Source: Pseudomonadota bacterium
GTDB taxonomy: Bacteria > Pseudomonadota > Gammaproteobacteria > Burkholderiales > REEB80
Direction of reading: 5' to 3'
DNA length: 64,000 nt
Assembly: GCA_028873515.1 (NCBI GenBank)
Contig: JAGWIG010000009.1
Coordinates: forward strand, 1 to 64,000
The position numbers and the translations under genes were made by a program. Of this stretch, positions 25,979 through 30,513 are shown piece by piece. Positions within the stretch are counted from its first letter, which is position 1. Every line of letters starts with the position of its first letter. The notes under the pieces were generated by a model that worked only from the letters and a program-made list of their open reading frames with translations, was not told the DNA's origin and made no database searches.

Positions 25979-27583
25979 TCAAACAAAACTTATGCTTTTG
26001 GATATTTCAGGTAGAGAATGAAGAATGGTAGGAAGGGCTATTTCAAGTTGATGAGGGTAATCCCGACTATAATGCAGTCCTCGGCTTTCCTTTCTTGCAA
26101 GTGCTGAGCGAACAATCAAATCTGCTGTGACTACCAAATTACGTAATTCCAGTAAATCATGACTAACTCTATAGTTGCTGTAGAATTCATCAATTTCTTC
26201 ACGTAAAAGCTCAATCCGGTGCATTGCCCGGGTAAGACGTTTTGTAGTGCGAACAATTCCGACGTAATCCCACATGAAACGTCGAAGTTCTTCCCAATTA
26301 TGGGCAATTACAATTTCCTCGTCTGCATCAGTGACGCGGCTTTCATCCCATGGAGGAAGAACAGGTCGGGCCGGTTTAGATGATCCAAGAATATCTTGTA
26401 CTGCCGAGAAAGAAAAAACTATGCATTCAAGCAAGGAATTTGATGCTAGGCGGTTCGCACCATGCAAGCCTGTGCAGGCGACTTCACCTACGGCATAGAG
26501 GTTTGGAATGCTGGTGCAGGCCTTTTCATCGGTTAAAAGCCCTCCGCATAGATAATGAGCAGCAGGTACTACTGGGATTGGAACATTAGTAATATCGATG
26601 CCAAAGGTAAGGCAGCGTGCATAAATAGTTGGAAAGTGAGCTTTAATAAATTCCTCACCTTTATGTGTAATGTCTAGATAGACACAATCAAGCCCTCGCT
26701 TCTTCATTTCAAAGTCAATAGCCCTGGCAACAATATCGCGAGGCGCAAGCTCTCCACGCTCATCATGCCAAGGCATGAAGCGCTCACCATCTGGCAACCT
26801 GAGAATACCTCCTTCTCCACGCACAGATTCTGAAATCAAAAAGGATTTGGCATGAGGATGATAAAGGCAAGTTGGATGAAACTGGATAAATTCCATGTTT
26901 GCAACATCACAGCCAGCTCGCCAACCCATGGCAATTCCATCACCAGTTGATACGTCAGGATTGGTTGTGTAAAGATAAACTTTTCCAGCACCTCCTGTAG
27001 CAAGGATGGTGTAATCCGATTGAAAAGTGATGACCTTACCTGATCTGCTGTTAAAAATATAAGCTCCAAAGCAACGATTTTCTGGCAGGCCAAGCTTGTT
27101 TCCTGTAATAAGATCAATAGCGATATGATGCTCAAAAATACTGATATTAGGGTGAGCAATAACCTTTTTAGCCAATGCATGCTGTACCGCTCCCCCCGTC
27201 GCATCAGCTGAATGAACAATTCTCCTTTGGCTATGCCCTCCTTCCCTCGTGAGATGTAGATGCTTGGAAACATCAGTTTCTCTATCAAACTCAACACCAT
27301 TATTTATTAGCCAGTTTATGGCTTTTGGTGCAGCAGTTGCTACAAGACGGGAAATTTGAGGGTCACTCAGTCCGGCACCTGCAATGAGCGTATCATTTAT
27401 ATGTGATTCAATGCTGTCGTTTTCTCCAACTGCAGCTGCGATGCCACCCTGGGCCCAATTACTTGACCCATCCAGTAGCAGTCTTTTGGTTATCAACGCG
27501 ACTTTTTTATGATCGGCAAGATTAAGGGCACTTGTCAGACCTGCAAGCCCGCTACCAATTATGACAACATCAAAACGAAGCAC
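25979..27583 (-). CDS. nadB: L-aspartate oxidase
   Basis: FAD-dependent oxidation of L-aspartate to iminoaspartate, the first step of de novo NAD synthesis. The 534 residues begin with the FAD-binding VVIIGSGLAGLTSALNLA (5-22), followed by NWAQGGIAAAVG, the active-site REGGHSQRRIVHSADATGG, ATGGAGKVYLYTTNP and HGANRLASNSLLECIVF. The C-terminal helical domain is intact. The start is GTG at 27583 with AGGA in register. nadA and nadC are not in the window. Confidence 0.96.
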   Translation of the reverse strand: MLRFDVVIIGSGLAGLTSALNLADHKKVALITKRLLLDGSSNWAQGGIAAAVGENDSIESHINDTLIAGAGLSDPQISRLVATAAPKAINWLINNGVEFDRETDVSKHLHLTREGGHSQRRIVHSADATGGAVQHALAKKVIAHPNISIFEHHIAIDLITGNKLGLPENRCFGAYIFNSRSGKVITFQSDYTILATGGAGKVYLYTTNPDVSTGDGIAMGWRAGCDVANMEFIQFHPTCLYHPHAKSFLISESVRGEGGILRLPDGERFMPWHDERGELAPRDIVARAIDFEMKKRGLDCVYLDITHKGEEFIKAHFPTIYARCLTFGIDITNVPIPVVPAAHYLCGGLLTDEKACTSIPNLYAVGEVACTGLHGANRLASNSLLECIVFSFSAVQDILGSSKPARPVLPPWDESRVTDADEEIVIAHNWEELRRFMWDYVGIVRTTKRLTRAMHRIELLREEIDEFYSNYRVSHDLLELRNLVVTADLIVRSALARKESRGLHYSRDYPHQLEIALPTILHSLPEISKSISFV

Positions 27584-28341
27584 TGTTTCATCCTGATAAA
27601 AATAACGTTGTAGTTTAACATGTCTTCGAGTATGCCTGCATCCGGCTAACTAGCTATAAGCATAAAGTAATAGGTATACTTATCCCGTGATTGATGGCTG
27701 TTTTATCCCTGTTTAAATTAAAATGGAAACGAGCTCTCCCTTTTTTACAATTTCATCTGATATGATTATGTTAAAAATACTTTATTGCAAGGTATCGGGA
27801 TTTAAAACCTCTTTGCATCCATGGGTGCTCAATTTTATCAGCTAACTTACCTCTGAGTTTTACACTTTCCAATATTCAGGCGACCATGTTTTTATTGAAT
27901 GCATGATGAAGGTATTTGGTGGATGCCAATAATAGAAATATTGCACCTAGTCGGGCCGAATCGATTATCTTGTCTGTTATCAGGAGCAGATCTGTGAAAT
28001 ATTGCTTTTTCTGGGGAACATCTGGTTGATCTGCTTCCTCGAGGAACCAGCTATCAGGATATATATGCAAGTATGCGCCTGCGCTCCCGCGGGCTTTAAG
28101 TTTATGCTACCGGCTTAATGAACGCCATTATCAAATTATATAGGAGGCAGTCATGAGTTCATGCATGAGAGACTGAAGGAAAGAACAGGATTGAACATGG
28201 ATCTGTCTAACTGCTTGCAACCTGTCATGATGAAGCCAAAACTTGCAATATTTCTATCTATATGCAGGAATGCTAGAAAAAAACTCGAAAACAGGTTCGT
28301 TACCTTAAAATAATAAATATGTTCACTCCGGGATTCGATAA
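27584..28341. other. Intergenic region without a supportable gene
   Basis: A 758-bp stretch between the divergent nadB and methyltransferase genes, unusually long for this compact segment. It contains a good ribosome site (AGGAGG, 28142-28147) in front of an ATG at 28153, but the frame ends after seven codons (MSSCMRD). A 38-codon frame at 28197 and a 64-codon minus-strand frame have no ribosome sites or family features. It could be the remains of a decayed or displaced gene, or hold a small RNA; I see no decisive structure. Confidence 0.5.
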
Positions 28342-29583
28342 ATGTCTGCAACAGCACATCGCGGTTCACGTATGTTAACAGTCGATAAATTATTTTTTCG
28401 TATGGAAAGAGAAGGAGCCCTCAAATCAGAAGCAACTGGAAATGGGCGAAGCTTACCCGTATTCTCGCACTCATTTTGGACGCCAAAACAACGACAGGCC
28501 TCCAGCCTGCAGGAAATTTCATATCGAGCCTGCTTCAAACCCCAGTTGCCGGCATTTTTTATCGATGCATTAAGTGAAGCTGGAGACAGGGTTTATGACC
28601 CCTTTTCAGGTCGTGGTACAACTCCTATTGAAGCAGCATTAAAAAATCGACGTATTGCTGCCAACGACATTAATCCGTTATCCCCGATTCTTTATTCGCC
28701 TCGACTAAATCCGCCTTCATTTGATGAAATAAAAAAAAGGCTTGATGGTTTGACCTGGACTCATGAATTGAAACCTGATTTTGATCTTTCAATGTTTTAT
28801 CATGAACAGACATTGCTTGAATTGCTTAATTTGCGCGCCTATCTTTCAGAAAGGCGTCTTGCAGGAGTTGAAGACAGTCTGGATACCTGGATACGCATGG
28901 TAGCAACCAACCGCTTGTCTGGTCATTCCCCCGGATTTTTTTCAGTGTATACGCTACCGCCTAATCAAGCTGTTCTTCCTGAAAGGCAACGCAAAATCAA
29001 TCTTGCCCGCAACCAGATGCCCACATATCGCCCAGTTGCCGAATTGATATTGAAAAAATCACGACAGCTTTTGCGTGATGTAGACAATAATATCAGGCAG
29101 GTTCTTAATATCAGAAACAAAGATGCTATTATTCTTTCTAATGATGCTCGAAACACTCCTGAAATTGCTAATGAATCGATCAAACTGACCATTACTTCCC
29201 CACCATTTCTGGATATAGTTCATTATGGAAATGATAACTGGTTACGTCTATGGTTTAATGAATTGGATGAAGAAGCAATTTTATCCAGAATGACTCTGTC
29301 CCGTTCACTTGACAACTGGTCATCGATAATGGCAGAAGTTTTTCACGAATTATTTCGAATCACATGCTTTGGTGGTTTTGTTGCTTTTGAAGTTGGTGAA
29401 GTGCGGTGTGGAAGTGTTCGTTTGGAAGACAACCTTTTGCCCAGCGCACACAAAGCTGGATTTATACCGCGCGCACTATTAATCAATGTTCAACATTTTA
29501 CCAAGACTGCCAATATCTGGGGCATAGGCAACAATCAGGATGGTACTCTCACAAACCGTATTATTCTTCTAGAAAAAAACTAG
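28342..29583 (+). CDS. Orphan DNA methyltransferase (N4/N6 type)
   Basis: A 413-residue S-adenosylmethionine-dependent DNA methyltransferase. Motif I (SAM binding) is DPFSGRGTT at 86-94, followed by AANDINPLS; the catalytic motif IV is TSPPFLD at 285-291. TSPP-type motifs are more usual in N4-cytosine enzymes than in N6-adenine enzymes, which have DPPY or NPPY. A helical insert of about 190 residues separates the motifs. The end GTLTNRIILLEKN is typical of a subgroup of such enzymes. No restriction nuclease or specificity gene is nearby. The start is uncertain: the ATG at 28342 lacks a good ribosome site and one at 28372 is also possible. Probably acquired. Confidence 0.8.
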   Translation: MSATAHRGSRMLTVDKLFFRMEREGALKSEATGNGRSLPVFSHSFWTPKQRQASSLQEISYRACFKPQLPAFFIDALSEAGDRVYDPFSGRGTTPIEAALKNRRIAANDINPLSPILYSPRLNPPSFDEIKKRLDGLTWTHELKPDFDLSMFYHEQTLLELLNLRAYLSERRLAGVEDSLDTWIRMVATNRLSGHSPGFFSVYTLPPNQAVLPERQRKINLARNQMPTYRPVAELILKKSRQLLRDVDNNIRQVLNIRNKDAIILSNDARNTPEIANESIKLTITSPPFLDIVHYGNDNWLRLWFNELDEEAILSRMTLSRSLDNWSSIMAEVFHELFRITCFGGFVAFEVGEVRCGSVRLEDNLLPSAHKAGFIPRALLINVQHFTKTANIWGIGNNQDGTLTNRIILLEKN

Positions 29584-29720
29584 AGAATTTATTTTATAGC
29601 TTGAAATAAAAAAACCAATAAAATAAATACGTATTTTTGTAATAAGGATTGTGATAATCAATTCAGCATGAACATGGCAGATGCCGCGATCAGAACATCA
29701 AGCGATATTTGCTCCGGAAT

Positions 29721-29748
29721 GAACTATTTCACGCATTGGCTGTCGAAA
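29721..29748 (+). promoter_or_regulatory. Candidate sigma-E autoregulatory promoter of rpoE
   Basis: GAACTA (29721-29726) and TCGAAA (29743-29748) are separated by 16 bp, the spacing and bases of sigma-E promoters (GAACTT, then TCTAA or TCAAA). It lies about 75 nt before the rpoE start. sigma-E genes commonly transcribe themselves. A second, sigma-70-like candidate (TATACT at 29787-29792) lies downstream. Confidence 0.55.
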
Positions 29749-29824
29749 GGCTAATTGACCCTGCATTGCCCCTAATCGATATAGGGTATACTGGACATTA
29801 ATTCGATCAGGAGAGGATGGGTCA

Positions 29825-30424
29825 ATGGGGCAGCGTGAAGTCGATCAGAAACTGGTCGAACGCGTCCAGCGAGGAGATAAAAGAGCTTTTGGCCTACTTG
29901 TCGAAAAATATCAGCACAAGTTAGGTAGGCTCCTATCTCGTTTTGTACCGGATTCCTCGGACATAGAGGATGTCACGCAAGAAACTTTTATTCGGGCATA
30001 TAGGGCTCTACCAGCATTTCGTAATGAAAGTGCTTTCTACACATGGCTTTATCGGATTGGCATTAATACAGCTAAAAACTACCTCGTCGCTCGAAATCGT
30101 CGCCCACCGACCGTGACAGAGTTTGATGCTGAAGAAGCCGAAGGATTTGAAGGTGGAGAATTGCTTAGAAACTATTCGACACCTGAGACGGAGTTGATGA
30201 GTAAACAGATAGTTCAGACTGTCAATGCTGCGATGGACAAGTTACCAGAAGATTTGCGGACAGCTATTACGCTTCGTGAAATCGAAGGAATGACTTATGA
30301 AGATATTGCTAACATGATGGGTTGTCCTGTTGGAACAGTTCGCTCAAGGATTTACCGGGCACGTGAAGTAATTGCTGATGAATTGAAACCGGTACTTAAT
30401 ACTCACGACAAGAAGAGATGGTAG
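29825..30424 (+). CDS. rpoE: RNA polymerase sigma-E factor (AlgU-like)
   Basis: ECF sigma factor for envelope stress, held by RseA/RseB and released by regulated proteolysis involving RseP (7.9 kb). The 199 residues show region 2 (AFGLLVEKYQHKLGRLLSRF, DIEDVTQETFIRAYRALPAFR, FYTWLYRIGINTAKNYL; about 22-95) and region 4 (LPEDLRTAITLREIEGMTYEDIANMMGCPVGTVRSRIYRARE; about 138-185). GGAGAGG lies just upstream of the ATG at 29825. It leads the rpoE-rseA-rseB-mucD group. Confidence 0.97.
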   Translation: MGQREVDQKLVERVQRGDKRAFGLLVEKYQHKLGRLLSRFVPDSSDIEDVTQETFIRAYRALPAFRNESAFYTWLYRIGINTAKNYLVARNRRPPTVTEFDAEEAEGFEGGELLRNYSTPETELMSKQIVQTVNAAMDKLPEDLRTAITLREIEGMTYEDIANMMGCPVGTVRSRIYRAREVIADELKPVLNTHDKKRW

Positions 30425-30513
30425 CCTAAAATGGATTTTTTATGTTTTGTTTGTAAGTGCAATATGATTTTGACGTAAATGCTGGATATAAGCGGCAATT
30501 CGGAGTTTATGAA

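Follow-up and report, generated by a model that had tools for sequence, protein, structure and literature searches.

The question raised by this locus is how a DNA methyltransferase gene came to lie alone between nadB and rpoE, and what has kept it there. In the window, by which we mean the whole 64,000-nucleotide stretch of DNA that was analysed, the gene forms an intact open reading frame with an ATG start and 413 uninterrupted codons (Table 1). A first-pass annotation had taken it for a transferred gene or the remnant of a restriction system; its derivation from a restriction-modification (R-M) family and its insertion between the two neighbours stood up to further analysis, whereas recency and a visible remnant did not. 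Our main reading, to which we assign a probability of roughly 0.7, is that of a solitary, probably cytosine-N4 (m4C) methyltransferase that derives, through domestication, from a Type II R-M system and is kept for a methylation-only role.

Table 1. Features of the nadB–rpoE region in the window
Feature	Position	Strand	Remarks
nadB (L-aspartate oxidase), left neighbour	25979–27583	-	name read from translation
Non-coding gap nadB–methyltransferase, 758 bp	27584–28341		no nuclease remnant, no RNA family, unrepeated
DNA amino-methyltransferase gene (solitary)	28342–29583	+	413 aa, PADLOC family PDLC03325
Motif I (AdoMet binding), DPFSGRGTT, residues 86–94	28597–28623	+	core residues invariant in alignments
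Helical insert between motifs II and III, residues ~122–262, putative target-recognition domain	28705–29127	+	model and profile alignment
Best-conserved part of the insert, GHSPGFFSVYTLPPNQAV, residues 194–211	28921–28974	+	alignments; residues 202–208 with pLDDT <50
Motif IV (catalytic), TSPPF, residues 285–289	29194–29208	+	invariant in 12 and 16 aligned members
Gap methyltransferase–rpoE, 241 bp	29584–29824		endonuclease position of R-M relatives, empty here
rpoE (sigma factor), right neighbour	29825–30424	+	name read from translation

An old insertion between nadB and rpoE

A total of 60 genomes were searched for nadB and rpoE, counting relatives with both DNA matches on one contig. The starts of the two genes lie about 142–324 bp apart in 17/17 such relatives of the same order, so that the window gene splits a conserved pair, as had been proposed. 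The corresponding distance is 2241 bp in the window and about 1770 bp in the congener G001, with the methyltransferase gene in between. The genus and its GTDB family were represented by one further genome, G001, which carries the gene at the same site; its protein shares 64% identity with that of the window and groups with it in one clade (support 99/100), and the G+C content across the window gene (about 0.38–0.43) is that of its surroundings. The shared locus, the clade and the background G+C content place the acquisition before the split of the two species; it is thus old and would date to an ancestor of the genus (two genomes). Vertical conservation at the locus, which the first-pass annotation itself had named as the observation that would speak against a transfer, was found in 2/2 genomes, and a recent transfer is not supported.

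Between the window gene and its G001 counterpart, silent change exceeds amino-acid change (413 codons; pN 0.244, pS 0.793), with synonymous sites so saturated that the strength of selection is not quantifiable. Similar pN/pS values were obtained for neighbouring genes in the same comparison (nadB 0.123/0.780, rseB 0.210/0.720, a ygfZ-like gene 0.340/0.735), so that the gene behaves as one of the faster-evolving but otherwise ordinary genes of this region, under constraint.

The region upstream of the gene had been described as unusually long and barren. Its length and the lack of any large open reading frame were reproduced: the longest frames lying in the gap or overlapping it from the right span 64 and 72 amino acids on the minus strand. 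As a sign of transfer, however, the gap is uninformative, since it measures only 293 bp in G001 and no conserved sequence was found between the two left gaps. No second copy of the gap was detected in the window genome, no match to phage DNA was obtained for it, and no Rfam match was found within 27000–30500. The suggested translated search of the gap for a decayed nuclease returned nothing; with four endonucleases as queries, tblastn gave no nuclease trace in either gap of the window or in the G001 flanks (best E 0.51). The last ~110 bp of the right gap are 73% identical to the sister genome G001.

Two repeats were seen in this region. An imperfect direct repeat of 45 nt (73%, with CTAGAAAAAAACT in both copies) flanks the gene, its copies lying at 28273–28317 and 29569–29613 with a start-to-start distance of 1296 bp; the right one forms the 3' end of the gene, and in this A-rich DNA the repeat could be due to chance. 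Within the left gap, a perfect 14-nt inverted repeat (27932–27945 and 28244–28257) has arms 298 nt apart.

Predicted enzyme class, motif order and helical insert

The PADLOC Type II methyltransferase model PDLC03325 matches residues 37–413 of the 413-residue window protein with 451 bits (E 7e-136). This near full-length profile match, combined with motifs I and IV, points to a Type II DNA amino-methyltransferase; Pfam N6_N4_Mtase covers mainly the motif X/I end (residues 45–111). The separation of the two motifs by about 190 residues, from motif I to the start of TSPPFLD at residue 285, agrees with the spacing given earlier.

The AlphaFold2 model of the protein, built from a 16-row alignment, reached a pLDDT of 82.7 and a pTM of 0.85. 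As anticipated from the sequence, the long stretch between the motifs is mostly helical in the model, with five predicted helices (residues 155–173, 179–190, 213–222, 232–243 and 249–260); the poorly predicted loop 202–208 lies inside the highly conserved GHSxGFFS...PPNQAV segment. In beta-class enzymes the recognition part lies between motifs VIII and X, and in the alpha class motif I is followed by the recognition part and then by motif IV; the blocks of the family are classed and numbered here by the usual conventions. When a profile of 16 family members was aligned with the beta-class m4C enzymes M.PvuII (1boo), 8s9n and TTHA0409 (2zie), both catalytic halves aligned, but as two blocks in reversed order: the motif X-I-II block of the family corresponds to the C-terminal part of these enzymes, and the block from motif III-IV onward to their N-terminal part. 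The insert is the stretch that separates the swapped blocks, so that, unlike in the beta class, the putative recognition part falls between motifs II and III. The protein offers no other large region that could read the target, and the insert is therefore probably the target-recognition domain, which would give the enzyme the gross alpha-class order. By description, this is also the order of the alpha-class m4C enzyme M.CbeI (GGCC).

The product is most likely a cytosine-N4 enzyme, judging from its sequence. TSPPF fits the (T/S)SPP(F/Y) form of motif IV found in m4C methyltransferases, and PMC3425538 gives a serine at this place as typical of m4C enzymes. An adenine-N6 (m6A) activity would be compatible with the fold, which both kinds of amino-methyltransferase share, and with Pfam N6_N4_Mtase, which spans both; given the m4C-typical serine and the finding that, among profile relatives with a named activity, the best are m4C enzymes, we consider it improbable, even though the same source describes M.CbeI, which resembles DmtB of Anabaena, as an m4C enzyme with DPPY in place of SPPF. 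Far less credible still is an RNA methyltransferase of the Trm11/TrmN kind. The tRNA m2G methyltransferases of this group rank first in Foldseek and VIA-align searches with the window model, and Pfam UPF0020 lies just over its cut-off (24.5 vs 22.3 bits); these ranks probably reflect a shared Rossmann core in unpermuted order. Membership in the Trm11/TrmN group entails close sequence relation and an N-terminal THUMP domain; the likeness found here consists of fold-level matches and the weak UPF0020 match, with no THUMP among the Pfam matches listed for the window protein. Against an RNA methyltransferase, DNA methyltransferases lead the sequence-profile matches, the PADLOC model spans nearly the whole protein, and four relatives adjoin a DNA endonuclease gene.

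Restriction-modification relatives and the absent endonuclease

Members of the PDLC03325 family were met in three settings: beside a PD-(D/E)XK endonuclease (PDLC03511), on phage-like contigs, and alone. Four intact pairs of methyltransferase and endonuclease were identified, in a Kapabacteria MAG (L016), in G158, in G461 of the window's own order and on one viral contig (L079/L091). The endonuclease gene lies directly downstream in all four, 7 bp behind the methyltransferase frame in the Kapabacteria MAG and overlapping it by four bases in G158. All four endonucleases match PDLC03511 and show PD...ExK, and it is this pattern in the alignments, together with the PADLOC name, on which the PD-(D/E)XK assignment is based; the structure model of the endonuclease (two rows, pLDDT 50.5) was left out of the fold searches.

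The window gene resembles these Type II systems in its nearly full-length methyltransferase match and differs from them in the partner. As had been claimed, no nuclease or specificity gene is present among the open reading frames listed around it. A search of nine genomes, directed at the PDLC03511 endonuclease family, gave matches in two (G060 and G158) and none in the window genome (G000, assembled in 275 contigs and perhaps missing a piece), G001, G046, G168, G285, G221 or G137. Whereas a Type II R-M system has its cognate endonuclease in the genome, the window genome has 0 PDLC03511 matches, and for this endonuclease family the gene has neither an adjacent nor a distant partner. The lack of PDLC03511 matches in the window genome and G001, together with the R-M paired relatives, supports the description of the gene as an orphan derived from an R-M system.

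Two endonuclease remnants were found behind methyltransferase genes. The endonuclease family was met in 1/74 genomes of family f46 (G795), as a broken half: contig C18 (L256) carries an additional, intact copy of the methyltransferase gene, and the endonuclease behind it matches only over its first ~110 residues, with a TAA before the catalytic half. On viral contig L080, a short fragment directly behind the methyltransferase gene matches a two-endonuclease profile (E 4.2e-6), with no PADLOC match. An intact methyltransferase that has lost its endonuclease is therefore seen in the family, although not at the window locus.

Several further observations were made on relatives. The Kapabacteria endonuclease gave no plasmid match, and no NCBIfam name was found for endonucleases of the PDLC03511 type. 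Distant plasmid-borne methyltransferases (~39% identity) have no annotated endonuclease adjoining, and the gene right behind the methyltransferase of Acetobacter pasteurianus matched no endonuclease model. Behind the G158 pair (L068:655-4185, minus strand) lie two further open reading frames resembling N6-adenine methyltransferase genes, separated by a phosphomannomutase-like frame. IS3-type transposase-like frames directly upstream of the G461 pair (L093) suggest mobility.

Family members on viral contigs and a second copy in the window genome

Near full-length family members with 47–54% identity are encoded at 14 loci on viral contigs. PHROG matches were obtained for 5/10 neighbour proteins from six of these contigs, the five coming from four contigs: a portal protein and a beta-clamp-like processivity factor (L078), a tail protein (L077), a DnaB helicase (L073) and a major head/protease protein (L083). 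Of two further viral contigs, one carries an integrase (L082) and the other a resolvase (L081).

The window genome itself holds a second family member on contig C269 (G000:C269:26867-28039; L018:7796-9046, plus strand), which is 56% identical to the first and has no endonuclease. This copy indicates that family members are still being gained by transfer. About 3.4 kb from it lies a Shedu SduA gene (L018:12464-13621, minus strand), and the same contig carries an integrase-type DUF6538 fragment (L018:5714-6103, minus strand).

Conservation in family f46 and other solitary members

Strong matches (E ≤ 1e-40) were found in 14/399 genomes of the order, namely the window genome, G001, G461 and 11 genomes of family f46. 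Within f46, which belongs to the same order, such a match is present in 60/74 genomes (36/41 of the better ones) and absent in 14/74. We examined 35 distinct f46 loci from the 60 genomes, those with DNA at hand. Both motifs are kept in 35/35, and glcF lies directly upstream on the same strand in 23 of the 32 loci with at least 300 bp of upstream sequence. The median dN/dS was 0.245 over the 171 pairs (of 595) with dS 0.1–1.0 and about 0.04–0.2 in closer pairs, compared with 0.194 for glcF in those f46 pairs that share it.

In a tree of 42 rows, including 14 of the 35 f46 sequences drawn partly at random, 13/14 f46 rows form one clade (98/96), and the fourteenth, L092 (G659), falls among members of phage type. 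The R-M members sit in four scattered spots. The clades of nadB|rpoE and of f46, like the C269 copy and the G461 R-M member, branch from an unresolved backbone, which would fit one shared domestication of f46 and the window genus as well as separate ones; conservation in f46 need not imply the same role in the window genus.

Outside these groups, a solitary member in G168 (L066:4468-5730, plus strand) lies between proS and a bcp-like peroxiredoxin gene, and another in G285 (L067:4225-5436, plus strand) between trmD and hemA, with gene names read from the open reading frames.

Solitary methyltransferases of this kind have precedents. Blow et al. (PMC4752239) report 165 candidate solitary Type II methyltransferases along with taxon-conserved families, and Fullmer et al. 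(PMC6471742) describe a conserved orphan family in haloarchaea; like these, and compared with them by description, the window gene is solitary and taxon-conserved. Measured by the lack of a cognate endonuclease and by occurrence at a constant position in more than 50% of the genomes of a taxon, the f46 gene (60/74 genomes, 23/32 loci behind glcF) is by sequence a conserved orphan, and the window gene (2/2 genomes of the genus at nadB|rpoE) is a smaller instance of the same. Lineage-fixed solitary methyltransferases are hence already known, and the window family, set beside them by description, adds a member; we recognised no paper describing it in the open-licence literature. What the family offers is the steps from R-M system to solitary gene side by side: intact pairs, a decay intermediate and a fixed lone methyltransferase. 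With the R-M relatives, the intermediate and the fixed form within one order, the question of what keeps such genes becomes testable.

Proposed origin and retained role

The ancestral form would have been a two-gene Type II R-M system in which the methyltransferase gene was directly followed by that of a PD-(D/E)XK endonuclease, and the methyltransferase gene would have been inserted between nadB and rpoE in the ancestor of the genus. The enzyme may bind AdoMet through motif I, use the helical insert to recognise a short stretch of DNA, flip out the target base and methylate its exocyclic amino group at TSPPF. As no endonuclease of the PDLC03511 family was found, the mark would be unable to serve self/non-self cutting in the window cell. 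Its retained role would most likely be epigenetic, as a mark that affects host promoters or replication, and protection from endonucleases of the same specificity may be a secondary one. For an m4C mark, an example of possible effects is M.Ssp6803II (GGm4CC) of Synechocystis, whose deletion, according to PMC6560206, altered growth, pigmentation and UV tolerance; the likeness drawn here is one of activity and not of sequence. We also put forward, tentatively, a wider reading in which the family was domesticated several times at housekeeping sites (nadB|rpoE in the window, behind glcF in f46, proS|bcp and trmD|hemA) and now provides poorly studied relatives with a lineage-core epigenetic mark of the rank of Dam or CcrM, with a tie between methylation and envelope stress conceivable via rpoE.

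The same gene could instead act as a molecular vaccine, being kept only to block R-M systems of the same specificity and their post-segregational killing, or to protect DNA that moves between cells, with no regulatory role. R-M systems of the family do circulate, and G461 carries one within the same order; the methyltransferase occurs beside phage genes on phage-like contigs, and the second copy in the window genome shares its contig with the Shedu defence gene. Retention at one locus in f46 is nevertheless steadier than is usual for defence genes, though compatible with such a use, and we regard a purely protective role as rather unlikely. That the gene arrived recently by transfer or is what remains of an R-M system in decay, a reading close to the first-pass annotation, would suit the mobility of the family, the scatter of R-M members over four spots of the tree and the f46 genome whose endonuclease is broken before the catalytic half. 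This account is largely refuted and very unlikely for the window gene, whose frame is intact with all motifs, whose locus is the same in the congener, whose G+C content is at background and whose flanks hold no remnant. We therefore retain the reading of an anciently acquired, domesticated methyltransferase.

Candidate target sequences

A GGCC target of the SuaI kind was considered and set aside: Sulfolobus acidocaldarius, among the 14 control genomes, matched the methyltransferase at E ≤ 1e-3, but 0/14 of them did so at 1e-40. Pfam RE_NgoPII, a family of GGCC endonucleases, matched 1/4 of the endonucleases (E 0.0099, below its cut-off), and this line was likewise dropped.

Site avoidance was assessed for 608 patterns in samples of 186–400 kb from three genomes with the endonuclease (G461, G158 and G060) and three without it (the window genome, G001 and G046). 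CTAG is commonly rare in genomes. The lowest observed/expected ratios in common among the endonuclease-bearing samples were those of CTAG (0.50/0.19/0.10 vs 0.88/0.83/0.56 without endonuclease), GTAC (0.69/0.18/0.46 vs 0.83/0.83/0.86) and GGCC (0.87/0.18/0.12 vs 0.80/0.86/0.85), all three to be read against the avoidance of many tetramers in the low-G+C genomes of this set.
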